From the IMG/VR virus record IMGVR_UViG_3300027971_000147, positions 1 to 32,505 of that record: 32,505 nt of DNA; one strand, written 5' to 3'. Under the pieces are notes generated by a model. It saw only the letters and a list, made by a program, of their open reading frames with translations, was not told where the DNA came from and ran no database searches. The position numbers and the translations under genes are program-made. Position 1 is the first letter of the stretch. Every line of letters starts with the position of its first letter. Positions 2,818 through 10,175 of this stretch are shown one piece after another. Source of the stretch: a virus.

Positions 2818-4305
2818 TTAGTAGTAATCAAGAGTGGCTTCCTCTTGCGACGGCTCATCGTCTTCGTCATCCTGCAACGAAATAAAATTGCCCTGCCGAA
2901 ACCGCATCCACGCCATTACCGACGCATCTACCTGATCGTCGTGCGGACTGTTGGGAAAAGCAGCAAGCTCCTCAACCAGTTCCTCCGCCCACTCCTGCCC
3001 CTCAGGATACCAGATCATTCCTGACTCCAACAAGGGAGCAACAGCATTCGCCCGACTCAACTTGTCCTGCGTTTTACTGCGACCACCCGGCGAATACATC
3101 GTCACAGGAATTCCTAACTTCCTCAACTCTTGCTGCAACGGCGTACCCGTCGCCTTCGCCTCAATCAAAACATTGTCCGGATTCCAATACCGATACTCAT
3201 CCTTGGCAATCCTCTTGAGCTCCGGGAAATCCCACCGGCCCTTGCGCACGTTCAACAAAATCAAATTGGGCCCAGAATCAGCATCCGGCGTGAACACCCC
3301 CCACGTGCTAATCACACTGAAGTCAGCCGTCTCCTTTTTGCTGTACGCCGTATCGTACGTCTGAATCAAATACTCACACTCAGGCGGTTCTTTAAACCGC
3401 CACTTCCTCCACCAGTTCCTCTTTAATATCGCCCCCTCATCATTGGTCGGCTGCTGCTGCCACTGGGCCTGCCACTTCTTCATCCCAATACTGACCTTGA
3501 CTTTCTCTAGCTCGTCCAAGGACCAGTAACCGGGCCACAATGGTTTGCCAGAAGGCAAGATCGCCGGGAACTCCAATATCTCCCACTGGTCAGACTTCAA
3601 CTGACCCTGCTGCCGCAACAACCTCCCCGATAGATCATCCGTCTTCCACCGGGTATTGATAACGATGATCGAACCACCCGGCTGTAACCGTTGACGGGGA
3701 CCGGACGTGTACCACTCCCACGTGGCCTCCATCGCCGTGTCCGACGTAGCATCCTGCTCGTCTAAGATATCGTCCAAGATGACAATATCTCCACCGCGCC
3801 CGGTCATCGCACCGCCCTTACCAATAAAGAACGCCTCCCCGCCTTTATTGGTATTCCACCGTCCAGCAGCTTTACTGTCCACGGACAAGCTCATCTCGGG
3901 GAAGAGTTCTTTGTATTTTTCTTCATCTACAAGATTTCGAATCATCCGGCCAAAGCGCTGCGCTAATTCGCCCGTGTGAGAGCCAACAATCAACTTTGAT
4001 TGCGGACGCTTGCCCATCAAATAGGCAGGAAATAGGTAGCTTCCCATCTGTGACTTGCCGTGGCGCGGGGGCATGGCAATCATCAAGCGCTTGCACTTGC
4101 CTTCAATAACCCTATCCAAAGCTTCAGCAATAATTCTGTGATGCTCGCCGACGATCATTTCAGGCCAGACGTACCGGCAGAAGGACAGAAAGTTCGTTGT
4201 TGATTGCTCGCGTATTTCCAGTAACTGCAACCGGAGTTGGAGCTTTAAGAACTCATCGCGGACTTGATCCGTAGGGGCAATTGCGGTCTGACGGGTAAGG
4301 GCCAT
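2818..4305 (-). CDS. terL: Terminase large subunit (packaging ATPase-nuclease)
   Basis: 495 aa, a normal length for TerL. It drives DNA into the prohead and cuts the concatemer. The ATPase half shows Walker A PPRHGKS (79-85), Walker B VILDD (175-179) and coupling motif INTRW (216-220). The nuclease half shows the RNase-H-like acidic residues: D318 in YDTA, E382 in LIEAKATG and D456/D457 in PHDDQVDA. All key residues are present, so it should be active. The gene starts with ATG at 4305, but no Shine-Dalgarno sequence precedes it; instead an AT-rich perfect palindrome lies 14 bp upstream. It follows a 419-bp non-coding gap, which separates it from the early minus-strand genes and suggests its own late promoter, though I could not identify one. 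The small subunit lies about 5 kb away rather than adjacent. Confidence 0.97.
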   Translation of the reverse strand: MALTRQTAIAPTDQVRDEFLKLQLRLQLLEIREQSTTNFLSFCRYVWPEMIVGEHHRIIAEALDRVIEGKCKRLMIAMPPRHGKSQMGSYLFPAYLMGKRPQSKLIVGSHTGELAQRFGRMIRNLVDEEKYKELFPEMSLSVDSKAAGRWNTNKGGEAFFIGKGGAMTGRGGDIVILDDILDEQDATSDTAMEATWEWYTSGPRQRLQPGGSIIVINTRWKTDDLSGRLLRQQGQLKSDQWEILEFPAILPSGKPLWPGYWSLDELEKVKVSIGMKKWQAQWQQQPTNDEGAILKRNWWRKWRFKEPPECEYLIQTYDTAYSKKETADFSVISTWGVFTPDADSGPNLILLNVRKGRWDFPELKRIAKDEYRYWNPDNVLIEAKATGTPLQQELRKLGIPVTMYSPGGRSKTQDKLSRANAVAPLLESGMIWYPEGQEWAEELVEELAAFPNSPHDDQVDASVMAWMRFRQGNFISLQDDEDDEPSQEEATLDYY

Positions 4306-4318
4306 TAAATCGAGTGAT

Positions 4319-4338
4319 AAATTTTTTGCAAAAAATTT
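4319..4338. repeat. Perfect 20-bp AT palindrome upstream of terL
   Basis: AAATTTTTTGCAAAAAATTT reads the same on both strands. It lies 14 bp before the terL start, where a ribosome-binding site and leader would normally be. It could be a protein-binding site or, as RNA, a 5' hairpin. Confidence 0.8.
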
Positions 4339-4389
4339 AGGGGCATATACCGATTTGGGTATAAGGGGGCCCTTTTTGGCCCCCCGGTA

Positions 4390-4411
4390 GTGTCAAAAAG
4401 TATTTTGACAC
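4390..4411. repeat. Inverted repeat, 9-bp perfect stem
   Basis: GTGTCAAAA and TTTTGACAC flank a four-base AGTA centre. Next to it (4365-4384) is a second stem, GGGGGCC/GGCCCCC around CTTTTT. Neither is followed by a long T-run in the minus direction, so they are not clear terminators. They may be operators or leader structures of the terL transcript. Confidence 0.7.
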
Positions 4412-4519
4412 ACTTTCTGGGAGAGAAATCGAGCCAGAGTCTGAGCGTATGCGATGACGGTGGTTAGATGGCCCTCCCCCTTGTTGATAAGTTGTACGCC
4501 GAAGGAGTGGAACGACTGC

Positions 4520-4566
4520 AAGGCGGGCCCACCCACCCCCGCCACCACCGACCCTCTTCGAGGGAA
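4520..4566 (-). repeat. G-rich hairpin element, full copy 1
   Basis: A 47-bp element with a GGCGGG/CCCGCC stem around a C-rich (plus) or G-rich (minus) loop, then a CCCTC-TTC-GAGGG hairpin. It is almost identical to 5837-5884 (one-base insertion) and partly repeated at 4617-4643. On the minus strand it carries GGGGG, GGG and GGG runs spaced by one base plus several GG pairs, so a G-quadruplex could form in the RNA or non-template strand. Confidence 0.75.
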
Positions 4567-4575
4567 CCAGTTCAG

Positions 4576-4606
4576 AAAAAAAAGAAAATAGGGGAAAACA
4601 CCTATT
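4576..4606 (-). terminator. Intrinsic terminator (second of pair)
   Basis: In the minus direction a 6-bp stem AATAGG/CCTATT with an 8-base loop is followed by a T-rich run (seen as A-rich 4576-4586 on the plus strand). It backs up the stronger terminator at 4668-4693 at the end of early leftward transcription. Confidence 0.6.
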
Positions 4607-4616
4607 GACATATGCT

Positions 4617-4643
4617 GCGGGCCCACCCACCCCCGCCTCCACC
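4617..4643 (-). repeat. G-rich hairpin element, truncated copy
   Basis: Shares the GCGGGCCCACCCACCCCCGC core with the full copies at 4520-4566 and 5837-5884, but the following CCCTC-TTC-GAGGG hairpin is missing. Confidence 0.7.
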
Positions 4644-4667
4644 ATTGTAGGGACGAAAACGCGGGCG

Positions 4668-4693
4668 AAAAAAAACCCGCCGAGTGGCGGGTT
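4668..4693 (-). terminator. Rho-independent terminator after the 93 aa gene
   Basis: In the minus direction AACCCGCC and GGCGGGTT pair around an ACTC tetraloop and run straight into six further T residues. It lies 31 bp past the stop codon at 4725, which is the ideal place for a terminator of that cassette. Confidence 0.88.
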
Positions 4694-4724
4694 GGGAGTG
4701 GAGGCCCCGAGGGGCCAAGTAGTG

Positions 4725-5006
4725 TTATGCCTGGACTGCCTCGGCTGCCGCGTTCGCTTCGGCACGCTTCTGGTTTTTCACTGCCACCAGTGCAGCGGCC
4801 TCTTCTTCCGACTCGGCCACCAGTTGCACGCCCAACGTCAGATCGGAATTGGACTTGATGTACTGGACATTGTCCCGGTAGCTGTCGCCCCATTTGGTTT
4901 CGACTGGGGTCAGACCCAGCAGGACCGCTACGATCTGTTCGACTTTGCTGGTTGCTGGAATCGCGAAGGTCTGGCTTCCGATGGTGACTGTCTTGATCTG
5001 TTTCAT
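4725..5006 (-). CDS. Small early protein of unknown function, 93 aa
   Basis: 93 aa, start ATG at 5006 with AGAGGATAGAGAA just before it. The N-terminal half looks like a small mixed alpha/beta domain (MKQIKTVTIGSQTFAIPATS), and the C-terminus is a long alanine- and glutamate-rich helix that ends in AEAVQA. I do not recognise the family. It forms a complete single-gene cassette: promoter 5056-5085, a strong 5' hairpin at 5027-5051, ribosome site, gene and terminator 4668-4693. This independent control suggests a dose-sensitive early product, possibly a host-takeover protein, but nothing in the sequence shows the target. Confidence 0.8.
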   Translation of the reverse strand: MKQIKTVTIGSQTFAIPATSKVEQIVAVLLGLTPVETKWGDSYRDNVQYIKSNSDLTLGVQLVAESEEEAAALVAVKNQKRAEANAAAEAVQA

Positions 5007-5026
5007 TTCTCTATCCTCTATGGTTT

Positions 5027-5051
5027 GCTCCGGGGCACCGTGCTCCGGAGC
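5027..5051 (-). promoter_or_regulatory. 5' leader hairpin of the 93 aa gene
   Basis: GCTCCGGGGCAC and GTGCTCCGGAGC pair over 12 positions with one G-U or mismatch around a single C. Predicted +1 of promoter 5056-5085 is about 5049, so the transcript would begin inside or right at the stem. Confidence 0.75.
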
Positions 5052-5055
5052 TTTG

Positions 5056-5085
5056 ATTATAACACTGCCTATTGCTTGGTTGCAA
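5056..5085 (-). promoter_or_regulatory. Sigma70-type promoter for the 93 aa gene
   Basis: Minus-strand TTGCAA, 18-bp spacer, TATAAT with TGT directly before the -10 (extended -10). It sits at the stop codon of the upstream 71 aa gene. Confidence 0.75.
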
Positions 5086-5284
5086 GCTTTGGATTCAAGG
5101 TCACATCGATGTCCCGGCTCAGGTCCGCTAGAACCTTGAGCCGCTGCCCGCGGTACCCGTGCTTGCGCAGTCTGGATAAGGCAGTCGGGCCACGGCCACC
5201 CGACATGCCAGCCATCTCGAGGCGCAGCCGAGCGCGAAGTACCAGCATCTCCATGATCGTCATGGTGTGTTTTTCGACAATCAT
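5069..5284 (-). CDS. Small basic protein, 71 aa, unknown
   Basis: 71 aa with many Arg and Lys residues (for example LRARLRLEMAGMSGGRGPT). The ATG at 5284 overlaps the TGA of the preceding 59 aa gene in an ATGA arrangement, so the two are translationally coupled and share promoter 5506-5535. The basic and Gly-Arg composition is compatible with nucleic-acid binding, but no motif is recognised. Its 3' end holds the -35 of the next cassette. Confidence 0.7.
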   Translation of the reverse strand: MIVEKHTMTIMEMLVLRARLRLEMAGMSGGRGPTALSRLRKHGYRGQRLKVLADLSRDIDVTLNPKLATKQ

Positions 5285-5460
5285 TCTGCCACCTCGAGCC
5301 GGTTGGCGATCGTATTGAGCACGACCATGACCGCGGTCATGGTGGCCATCGGGTTATCACTGGCCATTGCCACCTGCTGAGCATACTCGAGGGCCTCGGT
5401 CAAAGTCTCGCGATCCGCGAACAGGTTACTAGTGTGCTTGCGCAATTCCTGAATGTCCAC
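5281..5460 (-). CDS. Small helical protein, 59 aa, unknown
   Basis: 59 aa, GTG start at 5460 preceded at good spacing by AGAGAGGATAGA, the ribosome-site consensus of this region. The sequence begins MDIQELRKHTSN (GTG read as Met) and ends RLEVAE. It looks all-helical with a hydrophobic core (MTAVMVVLNTIANRL). Promoter 5506-5535 and hairpin 5480-5498 lie directly upstream. It is first gene of a two-gene operon with the 71 aa gene, with ATGA overlap. Function unknown. Confidence 0.75.
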   Translation of the reverse strand: MDIQELRKHTSNLFADRETLTEALEYAQQVAMASDNPMATMTAVMVVLNTIANRLEVAE

Positions 5461-5479
5461 TCTATCCTCTCTTGGTTGG

Positions 5480-5498
5480 GGTCCGCGGATCGCGGACC
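5480..5498 (-). promoter_or_regulatory. 5' leader hairpin made of the GCGGTCC motif
   Basis: GGTCCGCG-GAT-CGCGGACC is a perfect 8-bp stem. It begins at the predicted +1 (about 5499) of promoter 5506-5535. Confidence 0.75.
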
Positions 5499-5505
5499 GT
5501 GGCCC

Positions 5506-5535
5506 ATTATAACTCTACGTGGCCTCGGGGGTCAA
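5506..5535 (-). promoter_or_regulatory. Sigma70-type promoter for the 59/71 aa operon
   Basis: Minus-strand TTGACC, 18-bp spacer, TATAAT. The -35 lies inside the 3' end of the upstream 100 aa gene. Confidence 0.8.
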
Positions 5536-5817
5536 GCGTGGTTTATCTGCCGGGTCAAGCGTAAACACCCACCCGTTACCTTCCAGTGTGCGGCCTGCTT
5601 CCTTGAACGTATTCACCCACCAGACATCGCGAACCTTGAGGTGGATGTGCTTACAAACCGCCTGCACATGGGCACCATAACTGTCCTCGCTGTGGTCATA
5701 GGGATAGAACCCAGAGCGAACCTTCCGATCCCGGGAATCCCAATGAGCAACGCGAATTCGAGCGCCCTTAGTGTCAGTACAGGGAACAAAACGAGTAAAC
5801 AATGCAAGTTGATCCAT
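5515..5817 (-). CDS. Hypothetical early protein, 100 aa
   Basis: 100 aa, ATG at 5817 with AGAGGATATCC before it. It begins MDQLALFTRFVPCTDTKGAR and is rich in aromatic and histidine residues, suggesting a compact alpha/beta fold. Similar small proteins of this style are common in phage early regions, but I do not recognise a named family. Unlike its neighbours it has no obvious promoter of its own: a terminator-like hairpin (5885-5914) and a G-rich hairpin (5837-5884) lie directly upstream, so expression may depend on read-through. Confidence 0.7.
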   Translation of the reverse strand: MDQLALFTRFVPCTDTKGARIRVAHWDSRDRKVRSGFYPYDHSEDSYGAHVQAVCKHIHLKVRDVWWVNTFKEAGRTLEGNGWVFTLDPADKPRLTPEAT

Positions 5818-5836
5818 GGATATCCTCTATTAAATA

Positions 5837-5884
5837 AAGGCGGGCCCACCCACCCCCGCCACCACCGAACCCTCTTCGAGGGAA
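5837..5884 (-). repeat. G-rich hairpin element, full copy 2
   Basis: Near-identical to 4520-4566. In the minus direction the GGCGGG/CCCGCC stem with a G-rich loop runs into TTTATTT and then directly into the ribosome site of the 100 aa gene, so it could act as an attenuator or as a translation-control structure. Confidence 0.75.
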
Positions 5885-5914
5885 ACAAAAAGCGAAAAGC
5901 GGTCCGCGGACCGC
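5885..5914 (-). terminator. Terminator built on the GCGGTCC palindrome
   Basis: In the minus direction GCGGTCCGCGGACCGC (a perfect 16-bp palindrome, 5899-5914) is followed by TTTTCGCTTTTT. It lies just after the stop of the 58 aa gene. Confidence 0.65.
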
Positions 5915-5919
5915 CAGCA

Positions 5920-6096
5920 TCAGAACTCGAGCAAGTCCCACATGTAATCGGGCTCAAGCCCGAATTCGTACCTGCAAACTTCTTCCGGGTCCGCGCCCTC
6001 GCGCACCATTTGTTTAGCGTCTTCGATCCACGACAGCGCATCGTCGCGGTCCATTTCATCACGACGCATTAACACTTCCAAGATGCTATATTCCAT
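5920..6096 (-). CDS. Small acidic protein, 58 aa, unknown
   Basis: 58 aa, ATG at 6096 preceded by AGAGAGGATAGAGTC. It starts MEYSILEVLMRRDEMDRDDA and ends DYMWDLLEF. It is strongly acidic and probably a helical bundle; the acidic, small, early character resembles phage proteins that bind host enzymes or mimic DNA, but no family is recognised. It is a full cassette with promoter 6144-6173, hairpin 6118-6136 and terminator 5885-5914. Confidence 0.75.
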   Translation of the reverse strand: MEYSILEVLMRRDEMDRDDALSWIEDAKQMVREGADPEEVCRYEFGLEPDYMWDLLEF

Positions 6097-6117
6097 GACT
6101 CTATCCTCTCTGGTTAA

Positions 6118-6136
6118 GGTCCGCGGACCGCGGACC
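6118..6136 (-). promoter_or_regulatory. 5' leader hairpin made of the GCGGTCC motif
   Basis: GGTCCGCG-GAC-CGCGGACC, perfect 8-bp stem whose first base is one position from the predicted +1 (about 6137). Confidence 0.75.
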
Positions 6137-6143
6137 GTGGCTT

Positions 6144-6173
6144 ATTATAACACTTCCTGAAACCCACGCGCAA
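6144..6173 (-). promoter_or_regulatory. Sigma70-type promoter for the 58 aa gene
   Basis: Minus-strand TTGCGC, 18-bp spacer, TGT-TATAAT (extended -10). Confidence 0.7.
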
Positions 6174-6309
6174 GCATTAACTAGTGGTTTTTCGAGGCCC
6201 GGTTTCAATCGGACGCATTCGGAAACAGTTATCGCGAACACTGCCGCTATAAGTCCCGCTTATAGCCTAAGGCCTAAAGCAGGGACATCGTAGCGTTAAC
6301 TGCCGCCAA

Positions 6310-6378
6310 TTATTTATTGTCCATCCAATCGACAATCCACCACAAAACCACCCAAATTAAAACAACAAGAATTATCAA
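6310..6378 (-). CDS. Possible 22 aa single-pass membrane peptide
   Basis: A TTG codon overlaps the TGA of the 233 aa gene (TTGA), the same coupling style used elsewhere in this genome. It would encode an 18-residue hydrophobic, Trp- and Val-rich stretch (first residues IILVVLIWVVLWWIV) followed by a charged DWMDNK tail: a typical single transmembrane segment. There is no independent ribosome site, and so short a frame may arise by chance. Treated as a candidate only. Confidence 0.35.
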   Translation of the reverse strand: MIILVVLIWVVLWWIVDWMDNK

Positions 6379-7076
6379 ATTGTGGCCTCTTTGCCGCAAT
6401 CGCCCGCTACATGGTGGCGAAGGATCGAACCAATCGGAAGCGATTTTGCGAATTCCCGGACCGCTGCCGCGTCGTTTTTATGGCCTGTTTTTCTGGTTGC
6501 GTGCCACTGCATAACTACCCGCCCAACACCAGCATAACAGCCGCCCTTGTCATCGGATCCGACTAGTTTCTTCTGCTGGCTGTGTCCGACGAACACCACA
6601 ACAAAATCCCGATCCGACCTAGCGCACAATGGGTTTCCGCTGCCGCAATCCCTACATGTGAACCCTTCGGATAGTTCCGCGGGGCAACGCACAAACCGCA
6701 CGCCGTCAATCCGAGCGGGCCATTGATCGGCGCTGTCATGCGGAGCAGCATATACAGTAGGATAACCCGCGGCCACATTCTCAAGCGCGTCCGACACTGC
6801 GTCGGATGATAGGTTGATTACTGTTTTTCCCTTCTTAGGTTTCGGGATAACGCTGCGCCCGAAATGGGAATAAGTAAAGGCTTTCCCTTTACGTGGTACA
6901 GCATCAGATAAGGCGGCTAAGTACTCTTGATCGACTAGGTCCGCGCTATGCTCGCCCTTCGGATTCAATGCACAGGACTTCGGACACGTGCCGAATATTG
7001 AATGCTCGCCGCTGCGGTACGTTACCGCGATTGGTCCGGTTTTCCCGTTACCTGATACCGCTACTGTTTTTAGCAT
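6375..7076 (-). CDS. Cysteine-rich conserved phage protein, 233 aa, unknown
   Basis: 233 aa, ATG at 7076 with AGAGAGGAAATC upstream. It has an ordered set of cysteines: GTCPKSCALNP near residues 29-39, CPAEL, CRDCGSGNPLC around 140-152, and CYAGVG, suggesting a metal- or iron-sulphur-binding core. Other conserved-looking blocks are FTYSHFGRS and HDSADQWPARIDG. The pattern resembles a conserved phage domain of unknown function (I tentatively think of DUF7227 or the gp88-like group), but that match is from memory and unverified. It has its own promoter at 7112-7140, at the end of the upstream operon. No catalytic role can be assigned. Confidence 0.8.
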   Translation of the reverse strand: MLKTVAVSGNGKTGPIAVTYRSGEHSIFGTCPKSCALNPKGEHSADLVDQEYLAALSDAVPRKGKAFTYSHFGRSVIPKPKKGKTVINLSSDAVSDALENVAAGYPTVYAAPHDSADQWPARIDGVRFVRCPAELSEGFTCRDCGSGNPLCARSDRDFVVVFVGHSQQKKLVGSDDKGGCYAGVGRVVMQWHATRKTGHKNDAAAVREFAKSLPIGSILRHHVAGDCGKEATI

Positions 7077-7111
7077 GATTTCCTCTCTTCACTCTAAGTT
7101 ATGACAATAAC

Positions 7112-7140
7112 ACTATAACAGGTTGTCTCCCCATTCGCAA
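7112..7140 (-). promoter_or_regulatory. Sigma70-type promoter for the 233 aa gene
   Basis: Minus-strand TTGCGA, 17-bp spacer, TGT-TATAGT. It overlaps the stop codon of the 76 aa gene. A short 5-bp stem GTTAT/ATAAC lies at 7098-7111, but it starts before the predicted +1, so this promoter departs from the hairpin-at-+1 rule of the others. Confidence 0.65.
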
Positions 7141-7343
7141 CCTATTTTTTCGGCCATCCTTCGGGCTGCATCGCGTACCGCGATCACAAAATCCCGCTGG
7201 CACCCATAAGTCTCCACATCGAACTCGAGCACATCGCCCTCGCCACTGTCCGCGTAAACAGTGGCATGAGGGTAGTCAAAATCGGCGCGAACAAAATCAG
7301 GAACAGAATCAACGGGTTGCGTGATATCGTCGAATAGTCGCAT
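7113..7343 (-). CDS. Small acidic protein, 76 aa, unknown
   Basis: 76 aa, begins MRLFDDITQPVDSV. Acidic, with a likely C-terminal helix (IAVRDAARRMAEKIGCEWG). ATG at 7343 is two bases after the stop of the 74 aa gene, so it is the last member of the operon driven from 7791-7819. No family recognised. Confidence 0.7.
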   Translation of the reverse strand: MRLFDDITQPVDSVPDFVRADFDYPHATVYADSGEGDVLEFDVETYGCQRDFVIAVRDAARRMAEKIGCEWGDNLL

Positions 7344-7345
7344 GG

Positions 7346-7570
7346 TTATCTCCCGAGGGCGTAATTGCGCAAGGTTTTGAAATAGGCACTAGGTTTATCG
7401 TGTTTTCGGGCATTGTCTAACCACGCCACCACGACGGTGCCGCTAGGCTTGACGCCCATAAACCGCCCGACACTTTCCTTTGTTCCGGCATATACCCATT
7501 GCCCGGGTTGAATATGCTTATAAAAAGAATGAGGCATGGCCCAGATATTGAAGGCAGGTTGATATTGCAT
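7346..7570 (-). CDS. Small basic protein, 74 aa, unknown
   Basis: 74 aa, beginning MQYQPAFNIWAMPHSFYKHI. The middle (PGQWVYAGTKESVGRFMGVKPSGTVVVAWL) reads like a short SH3-like or Tudor-like beta barrel, which is an impression only. Its ATG shares one base with the upstream stop (TGATG), showing translational coupling. Confidence 0.7.
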   Translation of the reverse strand: MQYQPAFNIWAMPHSFYKHIQPGQWVYAGTKESVGRFMGVKPSGTVVVAWLDNARKHDKPSAYFKTLRNYALGR

Positions 7571-7749
7571 CAGTCCCTCCCCACACCAGCGTAAGCCTTT
7601 GCGGCCTTTAGAGTACGGAATGTCCGCTTTTCTTGCGGTATTCCGTAATATTCAGAATAGTAAATATTACGATTATGACAACCAAACTTTGTACAAACAA
7701 TCCACGCCACCGTGCGATTGTCGCGCTTCACTGGTGCAAACATAACCAT
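7570..7749 (-). CDS. Small basic protein, 59 aa, unknown
   Basis: ATG at 7749 is preferred over the GTG at 7752 because AGAGGAG is then 6 bases away. About 59 aa; basic, with KRDNRTVAWIVCTKFGCHNR and a C-terminal TLKAAKAYAGVGRD that looks like a helix. First gene of a three-gene operon; promoter 7791-7819 and leader hairpin 7768-7786 lie directly upstream. Function unknown. Confidence 0.7.
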   Translation of the reverse strand: MVMFAPVKRDNRTVAWIVCTKFGCHNRNIYYSEYYGIPQEKRTFRTLKAAKAYAGVGRD

Positions 7750-7767
7750 CACGCTCTCCTCTATGGT

Positions 7768-7786
7768 TCACTGCAACTCGCAGTGA
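7768..7786 (-). promoter_or_regulatory. 5' leader hairpin
   Basis: TCACTGC-AACTC-GCAGTGA, 7-bp perfect stem starting within two bases of predicted +1 (about 7784). Confidence 0.75.
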
Positions 7787-7790
7787 TAAT

Positions 7791-7835
7791 ACTATAACAC
7801 TACTTAACCACCTATGCAACTAGGGAGTTTCCCTA
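7791..7835 (-). promoter_or_regulatory. Promoter with shared 20-bp upstream element
   Basis: Minus-strand TTGCAT (7814-7819), 17-bp spacer, TGT-TATAGT (7791-7796). The 20 bp at 7816-7835 match the elements at 8534-8553 and 8866-8885 and start at the same offset from the -35. Further dyads of CCCTA/TAGGG continue to about 7850. Confidence 0.75.
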
Positions 7836-7848
7836 ATAGGGTTTACCC

Positions 7849-8061
7849 TTAGTAGTCCCCATAGTACAGGTCCTGATATGCTTCTGGGTTCGGCTGCGGC
7901 TCCCCCTTGTAGAAGGGATTCCTCTCCCACGTGTCATAGGGCGACAGCAGCCATTCGACATCCCGGCGATCACGGCCAACATCGAAGGCCCACTGTTTGA
8001 TCGCAGCCTCAATGCTGTAAGGCTGCTCAAATTCGTCATCATGGTTTGGACGAAAGATCAT
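7849..8061 (-). CDS. Small acidic protein, 70 aa, unknown
   Basis: 70 aa from ATG at 8061, which shares one base with the stop of the 133 aa gene (TGATG); this coupling makes 8061 a better start than the upstream GTG at 8076. It starts MIFRPNHDDEFEQPYSIEAA and ends with a Tyr- and Asp-rich tail (YQDLYYGDY). Acidic and aromatic; no family recognised. Confidence 0.7.
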   Translation of the reverse strand: MIFRPNHDDEFEQPYSIEAAIKQWAFDVGRDRRDVEWLLSPYDTWERNPFYKGEPQPNPEAYQDLYYGDY

Positions 8062-8462
8062 CACACCTGCTCCCACGCTTGCAGGCCCTCAATGACCTGA
8101 TCCTTGGTCAACCACCCACTGCGCATGGCGTGCTCGAGAACCTCTACCGCGGCCTCCCGTGACGTGTTGCTTCCAAACCCGTGAAGCTTGCACAACTCCT
8201 CGAAAGTGTCACCAGTGATGGGCACCGCGGCATCAATCAGCGCATCCTGAAGGTCGTCAGAAAACACGCAATGCCGACCAATGTAGATGATCTGAGGATC
8301 ATTGTCGTCCGGCGAATCCTTATACGAGGGCCACACCTCAATCATCATGCCTTTTGGCAAAAAGGGCCAAGATAACCAGCTATCAGTGTATCGACGGTCC
8401 CGGCTAGTATTTTCAACATTCCGGGTCAATTTGTACCACTGGGGTTTTCTGCTCATATCCAT
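8061..8462 (-). CDS. Early protein, 133 aa, unknown
   Basis: The frame is open further upstream, but the promoter lies at 8509-8537, so the start must be inside the transcript. ATG at 8462 follows AGAGAGGATAGAGATAGAA and gives 133 aa. It begins MDMSRKPQWYKLTRN. The C-terminal third is helical (FEELCKLHG, SREAAVEVLEHAMRSGWLT). Leads a two-gene operon with the 70 aa gene. Function unknown. Confidence 0.72.
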   Translation of the reverse strand: MDMSRKPQWYKLTRNVENTSRDRRYTDSWLSWPFLPKGMMIEVWPSYKDSPDDNDPQIIYIGRHCVFSDDLQDALIDAAVPITGDTFEELCKLHGFGSNTSREAAVEVLEHAMRSGWLTKDQVIEGLQAWEQV

Positions 8463-8487
8463 TTCTATCTCTATCCTCTCTTTATTG

Positions 8488-8502
8488 ACTGCACCATGCA
8501 GT
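8488..8502 (-). promoter_or_regulatory. 5' leader hairpin
   Basis: ACTGCA-CCA-TGCAGT, 6-bp perfect stem starting exactly at predicted +1 (about 8502). Confidence 0.72.
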
Positions 8503-8508
8503 GAATAC

Positions 8509-8559
8509 ACTATAACACTGCCATAAGGGGAAGTCAACTAGGGGTTTTCCCTAGTTGAC
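8509..8559 (-). promoter_or_regulatory. Promoter with upstream element and 11-bp dyad
   Basis: Minus-strand TTGACT (8532-8537), 17-bp spacer, TGT-TATAGT (8509-8514). An 11-bp perfect inverted repeat, GTCAACTAGGG/CCCTAGTTGAC (8533-8559, five-base centre), overlaps the -35 and contains the 20-bp element 8534-8553. This placement is typical of an operator or activator site. Confidence 0.78.
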
Positions 8560-8564
8560 ATCAG

Positions 8565-8801
8565 TTAAATAGTCCTCAATCCACTATCCTCATGCATCTG
8601 TTTCAACAGATGATTGGAATCAAAGTATTCGCCCAGATCCCGTGCGTACTTATGTGGGTACGCTCCCATCTTATGGCCAAGATTCCAGATCGCATCATGC
8701 TGAGTCTGGCCATCACATGACAGCCCTAGCTGTCTACCGTCAGACTCAAAGTAAGAAGCTTCCCACTTGCCAGTGTCTTCCTTGAATACACACTTGATCA
8801 T
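8565..8801 (-). CDS. Small early protein, 78 aa, unknown
   Basis: 78 aa, ATG at 8801 with AAGAGAGGAAACG before it. It begins MIKCVFKEDTGKWEASYFES and reads like a two- or three-stranded beta sheet followed by helices. Single-gene cassette with promoter 8841-8869 and hairpin 8821-8833. Not recognised. Confidence 0.72.
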   Translation of the reverse strand: MIKCVFKEDTGKWEASYFESDGRQLGLSCDGQTQHDAIWNLGHKMGAYPHKYARDLGEYFDSNHLLKQMHEDSGLRTI

Positions 8802-8820
8802 CGTTTCCTCTCTTGGTTAT

Positions 8821-8833
8821 CTGCAACATGCAG
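8821..8833 (-). promoter_or_regulatory. 5' leader hairpin
   Basis: CTGCA-ACA-TGCAG stem starting one base from predicted +1 (about 8834). Same plan as 8488-8502 with a different loop. Confidence 0.68.
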
Positions 8834-8840
8834 TGAAGAG

Positions 8841-8885
8841 ACTATAACACTGCCTGGGACCACAATCAACTAAGTACTTTCCCTA
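8841..8885 (-). promoter_or_regulatory. Promoter with shared 20-bp upstream element
   Basis: Minus-strand TTGATT (8864-8869), 17-bp spacer, TGT-TATAGT (8841-8846). The 20-bp element (8866-8885) overlaps the stop codon of the nuclease gene upstream. Confidence 0.78.
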
Positions 8886-9311
8886 CCTTCTGTCCATCAG
8901 GTCGGCCATTTCCTGCCAGTCAATCTTATCGATTGGCCACTGCCCTAAAGGAGGCACACGATCTACGTGCTTCTTCAATAGTTCTGGCACCTTGCTGCCC
9001 TCAAACAGCACCGCCCTTGTATCACCCTTCTCCCAGATATCATCCTCTCGGAACCGGGCCAACAAGTACACAGGGCACCCAAGCTCCCAATGCTTGACCA
9101 TAAACGCTACCTGATGAGGCCGAGGGTAAACCATCTTGGCATAACTAACCTTAAGCTCAACCATCGCAAAACGCCCCGGGAGCGCGACAAGAAGGTCGGG
9201 AAGGCCTAGGGTAGCCCGAGACTCCAACGGCGTTACAGAGGCCCCCGGAAGGGCCTTCCTGACCACTGCTGAGAACTCTGCCTCAGTCTTCCTTTTCTTC
9301 GGTGCTGGCAT
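8883..9311 (-). CDS. PD-(D/E)XK nuclease, VRR-NUC / Holliday-junction-resolvase type
   Basis: 142 aa. The core is E30, then GLPDLL with P38-D39, then VELK with E52 and K54, then Q67 in RPHQVAF. This is the D-xn-ExK metal-binding site of small PD-(D/E)XK nucleases such as VRR-NUC domains and phage Holliday-junction resolvases. It would cut branched replication intermediates before packaging or degrade host DNA. ATG at 9311 lies inside the end of the small terminase gene (29-bp overlap) with GGAG seven bases before it, which ties nuclease and packaging expression together. Fold call is strong; the exact substrate is inferred. Confidence 0.85.
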   Translation of the reverse strand: MPAPKKRKTEAEFSAVVRKALPGASVTPLESRATLGLPDLLVALPGRFAMVELKVSYAKMVYPRPHQVAFMVKHWELGCPVYLLARFREDDIWEKGDTRAVLFEGSKVPELLKKHVDRVPPLGQWPIDKIDWQEMADLMDRR

Positions 9312-9951
9312 CGATCATCTCCATAATGTCTTCAGGGGGTTCTTCGACCCCGGGATCAAAGGCTGGATCTATCTCTCTCGCAAGCGTCTCAGTGACCTCT
9401 CCGGTGGTCGCATCAATGATCGCAGTGGGAGCCGGTCCGTACAGGCGCTTCAGTTCATCAAGCTTGCGCTCGACCTCTTCCTTACTCATCGAGTCAATAG
9501 TCCCGTGCCGGATCTCCTTGCGCTCGATGTAAATCGTTCCAAGGGCCTGTCCCCGCCGATACTCAGCGTTGACCGCGGCAGCAAAAGCACCCGCCTCGAT
9601 GGCCTTGTCGCGGATAATCTGCAAGTCCCGCATGTGCCGGTCATAGTTGGTGTTGTACTTCGAGGCCAACTCCGCCCGGTACGCTTGGATCGCGGCCACC
9701 ACATGGGGGTTCATCTTCGGGTTCGTTAGCTGCCATGCCTTGACGCTGGGGTTCGTTGTCTCATACCCCGCGGCCTTCACAGCATCCTTGAGCGTGACGC
9801 GGCCATCGCCACTCACATACTCCTGAACAAACTTCCACTCTTTGGCCGTCAGCGTCTTTGCAGCACGCAACTTCGGAACAACGGCAGCGGTCCTCGTTGC
9901 TACCTTAGGAGGTATGACAGGAGGGACATTCCAAACATCCTTCTTCGTCAC
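9283..9951 (-). CDS. terS: Terminase small subunit
   Basis: 222 aa. Residues about 36-95 match the DNA-binding head of small terminases: LTAKEWKFVQEYVSGDGRVT, then a helix-turn-helix with DAVKAAGYE and a PHVVAAIQAYRAEL segment. The middle is a helical oligomerisation region, and the C-terminus is acidic (EEPPEDIMEMIDASTEEKED), which suits contact with the large subunit. It recognises the packaging site and hands DNA to TerL. GTG start at 9951 overlaps the upstream TGA (GTGA). It lies about 5 kb from terL with many early genes between them, which is not the usual adjacent arrangement. The call rests on motif pattern and length. Confidence 0.8.
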   Translation of the reverse strand: MTKKDVWNVPPVIPPKVATRTAAVVPKLRAAKTLTAKEWKFVQEYVSGDGRVTLKDAVKAAGYETTNPSVKAWQLTNPKMNPHVVAAIQAYRAELASKYNTNYDRHMRDLQIIRDKAIEAGAFAAAVNAEYRRGQALGTIYIERKEIRHGTIDSMSKEEVERKLDELKRLYGPAPTAIIDATTGEVTETLAREIDPAFDPGVEEPPEDIMEMIDASTEEKED

Positions 9952-10175
9952 TCAGTTCTCCACATACGCCATCCCCCTTCCGCGGGCACAGAACGCACTG
10001 TAAACGCCCAGCTAGGCCTATGCCTTCGGACGAACCTTAACGCGGCCACACGGGCAGATTTAGCCTGTCCAAAGTCCTTAAACAGGATCGAATCCCCCTC
10101 TTCCATCTGATCAAAGGGGTACCGGGTCCGGCCTGTCGGCTGTGACACGTTTTTGTCTATGTTGAACACAATCAA
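9948..10175 (-). CDS. Small basic protein, 75 aa, unknown
   Basis: 75 aa. Best start is TTG at 10175, which overlaps the TGA of the upstream frame (TTGA) and has GGAG four to five bases before it. It begins MIVFNIDKNVSQPTGRTRYP (TTG read as Met). The second half is Arg-rich (SARVAALRFVRRHRPSWAF), consistent with nucleic-acid binding. It directly precedes and couples to terS. Not recognised. Confidence 0.65.
   Translation of the reverse strand: MIVFNIDKNVSQPTGRTRYPFDQMEEGDSILFKDFGQAKSARVAALRFVRRHRPSWAFTVRSVPAEGGWRMWRTE

Follow-up and report, generated by a model that had tools for sequence, protein, structure and literature searches.

Promoters and leaders in the window

The sequence analyzed here (the window) is a 32.5-kb stretch of an IMG/VR virus record that forms part of a tailed phage and also encodes PolA, a UvrD-like helicase, and a primase. 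On its minus strand, the genes for the two terminase subunits (small and large) are separated by a series of small genes, most of which have no known function. This series contains seven leftward sigma-70-like promoters, with a TATAAT or TATAGT -10 element and a TTG-type -35 element; the minus strand of the whole window has just two further TATA(A/G)T hexamers. With +1 taken as the seventh nucleotide after the -10 element, six of the seven promoters displayed a clear stem-loop at the expected transcription start, followed by a ribosome-binding site resembling AGAGGATAGAG (Table 1). These six stems begin between 2 nt upstream and 1 nt downstream of the predicted +1. Hereafter, promoter, hairpin leader, ribosome-binding site, and small gene are together called a cassette.

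An initial annotation of this DNA had listed six promoters with stems whose edge falls at the expected transcription start, and all six were found at the positions it gave, although it overlooked the seventh (-10 at 7112), which has only a weak AT stem. Its statement that the stems differ completely in sequence holds across related phages and is too strong within the window, where two stems have identical GGTCCGCG arms and three are (T)CACTGC variants lying inside similar 49-nt repeats. Watson–Crick stems of at least 6 bp starting 2–8 nt after the -10 element were present at four of the seven promoters as against 2.3% of positions (p = 9e-6). The stem of cassette 1 contains one A-C mismatch among 11 pairs, and of the two candidate starts of the cassette 6 gene the one at 8462 is more likely.

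Table 1. Cassettes, inverted repeats, and genes of the small-gene region (positions in the window)
Feature	Position	Strand	Elements and remarks
Cassette 1	5004..5085	(-)	-35 TTGCAA (5085-5080); -10 TATAAT (5061-5056); gA ATG 5006
Cassette 1 stem-loop	5051-5027	(-)	GCTCCGGAGCA-CGG-TGCCCCGGAGC; ribosome site AGAGGATAGAG (5019-5009)
Cassette 2	5458..5535	(-)	-35 TTGACC (5535-5530); -10 TATAAT (5511-5506); GTG start 5460
Cassette 2 stem-loop	5498-5480	(-)	GGTCCGCG-ATC-CGCGGACC; ribosome site AGAGAGGATAGA (5472-5461)
Cassette 3	6094..6173	(-)	-10 TATAAT (6149-6144); ATG 6096
Cassette 3 stem-loop	6136-6118	(-)	GGTCCGCG-GTC-CGCGGACC; ribosome site AGAGAGGATAGAG (6111-6099)
Seventh promoter	7074..7140	(-)	-35 TTGCGA (7140-7135); -10 TATAGT (7117-7112); ATG 7076
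Seventh promoter, weak AT stem	7111-7098	(-)	GTTAT-TGTC-ATAAC; ribosome site AGAGAGGAA (7088-7080)
Cassette 5	7750..7819	(-)	-35 TTGCAT; -10 TATAGT (7796-7791); GTG 7752 or ATG 7749
Cassette 5 stem-loop	7786-7768	(-)	TCACTGCG-AGT-TGCAGTGA; ribosome site AGAGGAGAG (7763-7755)
Inverted repeat	7819..7837	(-)	ATTAGGGA-AAC-TCCCTAGT; directly upstream of, and touching, cassette 5 -35
Cassette 6	8454..8537	(-)	-35 TTGACT (8537-8532); -10 TATAGT (8514-8509); ATG 8462 or 8456
Cassette 6 stem-loop	8502-8488	(-)	ACTGCA-TGG-TGCAGT; ribosome site AGAGAGGATAGAG (8481-8469)
11-bp inverted repeat	8533..8559	(-)	GTCAACTAGGG-AAAAC-CCCTAGTTGAC; 3' arm holds most of cassette 6 -35
Cassette 7	8799..8869	(-)	-35 TTGATT (8869-8864); -10 TATAGT (8846-8841); ATG 8801
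Cassette 7 stem-loop	8833-8821	(-)	CTGCA-TGT-TGCAG; ribosome site AGAGAGGAAA (8813-8804)
terL	2818..4305	(-)	Large terminase subunit; anchor for fetching relatives
gA	4725..5006	(-)	93-aa protein, function not known; no PHROG or Pfam match
Second gene of cassette 2	5069..5284	(-)	71-aa protein behind gC, function not known
gC	5281..5460	(-)	59-aa protein, function not known; 74 loci with a homologue, counting overlapping fetches
Gene of cassette 3	5920..6096	(-)	58-aa protein, function not known
DUF7227 (PF23872) gene	6375..7076	(-)	233-aa protein; 155 loci with a homologue, counting overlapping fetches
Gene of cassette 7	8565..8801	(-)	78-aa protein, function not known

Hairpin leaders in related phages

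A megablast search of the region against named phages gave no match, and the nearest named phages by TerL were Dishui Lake phage DSL-LC04 (63%), for which a new family has been proposed (PMC10611076), and pelagiphage HTVC027P (54%). Relatives were represented by the 256 loci fetched with TerL queries, some of which are overlapping fetches of the same contig. The same layout, namely a -10 element, a stem 6–7 nt later, a CAACC-like linker, a AGAAAGGATAGAG-type ribosome-binding site, and a small gene, recurred in 227 distinct leaders (256 records). When cassettes were collected from the relatives without regard to hairpins, 94 of 175 distinct spacers contained a stem of at least 8 bp, compared with about 1.2 in shuffled sequences. 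Scanning for promoter and ribosome-site patterns gave 92 stretches that are probably mostly chance matches, true cassettes being distinguished by their stems. In a scan of -10 hexamers, coding-strand stems of at least 7 bp began 2–7 nt downstream about 10 times more often per position than elsewhere; no such clustering was seen on the non-coding strand, or after the -10 hexamers of T7, T4 (1–50 kb), HTVC027P, and MinM2. At least four of the six -35 positions matched in 44 of 137 leaders versus 16 in shuffles.

In the loci that extend 4 kb or more beyond terL on its upstream side, 235 such sites lay upstream of this gene and none downstream, repeated contigs inflating the number and not the contrast; under a looser 6-bp criterion, a few scattered sites appeared downstream. 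The hairpin leaders are restricted to the small-gene region and to this phage clade. A single similar site occurs in DSL-LC04, ahead of the gene adjoining terL (L175:10116, GCGGGA-ATCC-TCCCGC at offset 6), and a sparse form of the hairpin leader may therefore be older than the clade of the window.

We next consider where the stem lies relative to the transcript end. Across 71 divergent representatives, Watson–Crick pairing by offset after the -10 element was at chance at offsets 0–3, 0.48–0.52 at 4–5, 0.73 at 6, and about 0.96 from 7 onward. Offset 5 was C or T in 110 of 137 leaders and offset 6 was A or G in 108 of 137, forming a pyrimidine-purine start dinucleotide. Because pairing sets in at offsets 6–7 and this dinucleotide occupies offsets 5–6, the stem begins at about the predicted +1 or +2; for a start at offset 6, itself predicted from the sequence, it would begin within about 0–3 nt of the transcript 5' end. 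Folding from offset 6 gave median unpaired probabilities of 0.22, 0.006, and 0.001 at +1, +2, and +3, and of 0.72 at the ribosome-binding site.

The pairing is kept while the sequence is free. The 5' arms paired at 96% with their own 3' arms versus 35% with the arms of other leaders, and 54 of 61 arms were distinct; since the stems had been selected for pairing, the own-arm figure is biased upward, and it is the shuffle and offset controls that show how rare such stems are by chance. Orthologous leaders of gC gave the same picture: a stem of at least 6 bp was found at offset 2–8 in 20 of 24 clustered leaders and in none of the 24 at a control offset of 15–21, and arm identity between leaders was 32%, with 97.5% own pairing and 32.5% cross pairing. 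As alignment of the leaders with MAFFT misaligned the stems, pairing was counted on loop-anchored sequences. Compensating changes thus preserve the stems in related phages, which bears out the proposal of the initial annotation that structure rather than sequence is maintained and answers the check in relatives that it had suggested. In addition, mismatches in otherwise perfect stems were more often G-T than A-C, both among clustered representatives (15 versus 4, p = 0.019) and among distinct stems (28 versus 6, p = 0.0002). This excess is expected if the sense RNA folds and not if the DNA does, and it indicates that selection acts on the sense RNA.

A second palindrome was present in many relatives, where it is variable, fills the spacer between the -35 and -10 elements, and ends at the -10 element (e.g., L015:2358, L101, L188:1800, L208:7357, L080:8566, and L014:1489). 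Its compensatory variants include TTGACATGGTCC-AGCT-GGACCATGTTATAAT, TTGACACGGTCC-AGCT-GGACCGTGTTATAAT, and TTGACACGGGGC-CCAA-GCCCCGTGTTATAAT. Overall, 41 of 77 upstream palindromes end at the -10 element, and stems of at least 7 bp occur within 45 nt upstream in 27 of 71 representatives, about 3 being expected. In several genomes, the spacer palindrome follows soon after the stop codon of the upstream gene.

Gene order and neighboring elements

The initial annotation had described the cassettes as freely shuffled. This description is not supported, because the common genes hold one fixed order (terS > nuclease > DUF7227 gene > gC > gA > terL) in every locus examined, and variation between loci is confined to the cassettes between them. 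PHROGs and Pfam searches left most of the small proteins without known function. Distant homologues of gA also lie upstream of terL in relatives, again with a hairpin leader. A terminator-like hairpin with a T-rich tail (5915-5898) is located just 3' of the 58-aa gene of cassette 3. On the minus strand, we also noted three copies of a G-rich, hairpin-forming element resembling a G-quadruplex, GGTGGTGGCGGGGGTGGGTGGGCCCGCC (4520-4554, 4614-4648, and 5837-5871), two of which adjoin a CCCTC-GAA-GAGGG hairpin; a similar G-rich run is present in one relative (L018).

Possible roles of the hairpin and known systems

RppH and RNase E require single-stranded 5' ends, and 5' hairpins stabilize the ompA, papA, and bla mRNAs (PMC3997798). 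We consider it probable that the 5'-terminal hairpin of the cassettes, selected as RNA for its position and pairing, shields the mRNA from 5'-end-dependent decay, with the ribosome-binding site held apart from upstream sequence. Each cassette would be a single- or few-gene transcription unit with its own host-type sigma-70 promoter, whose initial transcribed sequence would fold into a 6–12-bp hairpin from about +1 or +2, followed by the unpaired CAACC-like linker and the conserved ribosome-binding site. With its first bases paired, the transcript would offer poor purchase to an RppH-type pyrophosphohydrolase, the 5' sensor of RNase E, or a 5' exonuclease, so that short phage messages would last longer while the ribosome-binding site is kept apart from what lies upstream. 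The leaders have a common geometry, a sequence-independent covariation, and a mismatch bias in the sense of RNA. Protection from RppH and RNase E fits this geometry, in that +2 and +3 are almost always paired in the predicted folds and the ribosome-binding site is mostly free; the actual start site, the effect on stability, and the enzymes involved are presumed.

Several points weigh against this account. The start sites are predicted from sequence, and the presence of RppH and RNase E is an assumption; a scan of genome contigs matched only two metagenome bins and thus gave no reliable host. In an AT-rich subgroup (L024, L030, L031, L034, and L037), the inverted repeat reaches offset 2, that is, 4–5 pairs upstream of the expected +1, more than a hairpin serving the 5' end alone would require. 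The spacer palindrome cannot be part of the RNA that its own promoter makes, and the energy z-scores of single window leaders were unremarkable. Furthermore, only 8 of 38 orthologous leaders of the DUF7227 gene had a hairpin, indicating that it is not needed at every promoter. Most leaders of this gene thus lack the hairpin, although no other gene of the small-gene region is shared as widely.

Part of the effect of the hairpin may be insulation of the ribosome-binding site. That it mainly insulates translation from variable upstream or read-through pairing and so steadies expression, with mRNA stability being secondary, appears unlikely to us. The linker and the ribosome-binding site are indeed conserved and mostly unpaired beside a strong stem, and the cassettes are so tightly packed, with upstream stop codons abutting or overlapping promoters, that read-through is likely; however, insulation needs no stem exactly at +1, and the sharp onset of pairing at offsets 6–7 fits a 5'-end function better. 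Operator palindromes overlapping +1 and bound by a phage or host regulator are largely refuted, and we give this explanation almost no credence: ACTG/CAGT is found repeatedly as the outer bases of the stems, in many leaders, but even orthologous leaders have arms of only about one-third identity, arms differ within single genomes, the mismatch bias is of the RNA kind, and a protein would have to bind any palindrome. A protein operator was accordingly rejected for want of a sequence shared among the sites in one genome or clade.

The spacer palindromes bear on three further proposals. The inverted repeats could act as DNA, with the -10 element set between the spacer and +1 palindromes and promoter opening tuned by extrusion or supercoiling. 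The compensatory changes in spacer palindromes that end at the -10 element (as do over half of the upstream palindromes) and the +1 repeats of the AT-rich group that run into untranscribed bases would accord with this. We nevertheless judge it very improbable, as the excess of G-T over A-C at the +1 stem shows one-strand selection as RNA, most cassettes have the +1 stem alone, and a DNA model gives no reason for an onset at +1. Alternatively, long read-through RNA might be processed and capped: the upstream mRNA would end in the spacer palindrome as its 3' hairpin, the following mRNA would begin with the +1 stem as its 5' hairpin, and cleavage or weak termination would take place at the AU-rich -10 element between them. 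The closeness of spacer palindromes to upstream stop codons and the excess of upstream stems favor such processing, but no U tract follows the spacer palindromes (0 of 42 with 5 or more T among the 8 nt that follow), many cassettes have no upstream stem, and the position of the +1 stem is explained less well than by primary initiation; it is, in our view, improbable. If a spacer palindrome closes the upstream message, it is, lacking a U tract, at most a weak terminator or 3' shield. A further arrangement, doubtful but possible, is one in which the -10 element sits between two variable hairpins, one closing the upstream mRNA and one capping the next, so that each small-gene mRNA would be sealed at both ends by a sequence-free module with minimal DNA.

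As for the +1 stem itself, we rejected an intrinsic terminator or attenuator, since a U-rich tract (5 or more T within 8 nt) directly followed it in only 4 of 137 leaders. A subgroup stands apart from this rejection (L040, L043, L075, L078, and L079; e.g., L075:7871): there, TTTTTT follows the stem, which resembles an intrinsic terminator placed at +1.

These leaders constitute a natural experiment on the role of 5' hairpins, with well over 100 divergent leaders of the same geometry and free sequence on host-type promoters, through which 5'-end-dependent mRNA decay in phage infection would become directly testable. They would also help to locate transcription starts and small genes of uncultured phages independently of sequence, and would supply many natural leaders as candidate stabilizers.

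We found no description of such a serial hairpin-leader arrangement in the open-access papers searched, and no Rfam match in 4300-10000 reached the gathering score. The P22 pid arrangement, checked in its paper, is not the same. Phage morons are inserts consisting of a promoter, a gene, and a terminator. The cassettes resemble them in that small genes are driven by promoters of their own and in some cases end in terminators, but a hairpin leader is no part of the moron idea, and here the common genes are in fixed order. The SAS and ESAS elements of cluster K mycobacteriophages (PMC3203893) likewise place a ribosome-site motif that is conserved, together with an inverted repeat upstream, before many of the small genes within one genome region. 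SAS is a 13-bp sequence at the start codon, GGGATAGGAGCCC (PMC3203893), and was rejected because the motif in the clade of the window is AGAAAGGATAGAG or AGAGAGGATAGAG. ESAS is a conserved 17-bp sequence in each phage group whose description makes no link to a promoter start, whereas in the window clade the stem sequence is free and its position at +1 is fixed; it was rejected because the leaders have no conserved 17-bp consensus, the arms of orthologous leaders sharing so little identity.

In T7 (L179), transcripts from the class III promoters phi10, phi17, and phi13, as well as from phi3.8 and the host-type promoter A2, fold into a hairpin from +1. These leaders are alike in where the hairpin begins, but most of them are synthesized by T7 RNA polymerase and linked to the GGGAGA at which it starts, they occur at only some promoters, and they do not form serial sigma-70 small-gene cassettes. 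Also close in design are the 5' hairpins of Escherichia coli ompA, papA, and a synthetic bla, which lie at or next to the 5' end, leave a free ribosome-binding site downstream, and hinder RppH and RNase E (PMC3997798). While those stem-loops belong to individual genes, the phage clade carries dozens of unrelated stems at the same position on serial promoters, saturated in sequence and preserved in pairing.

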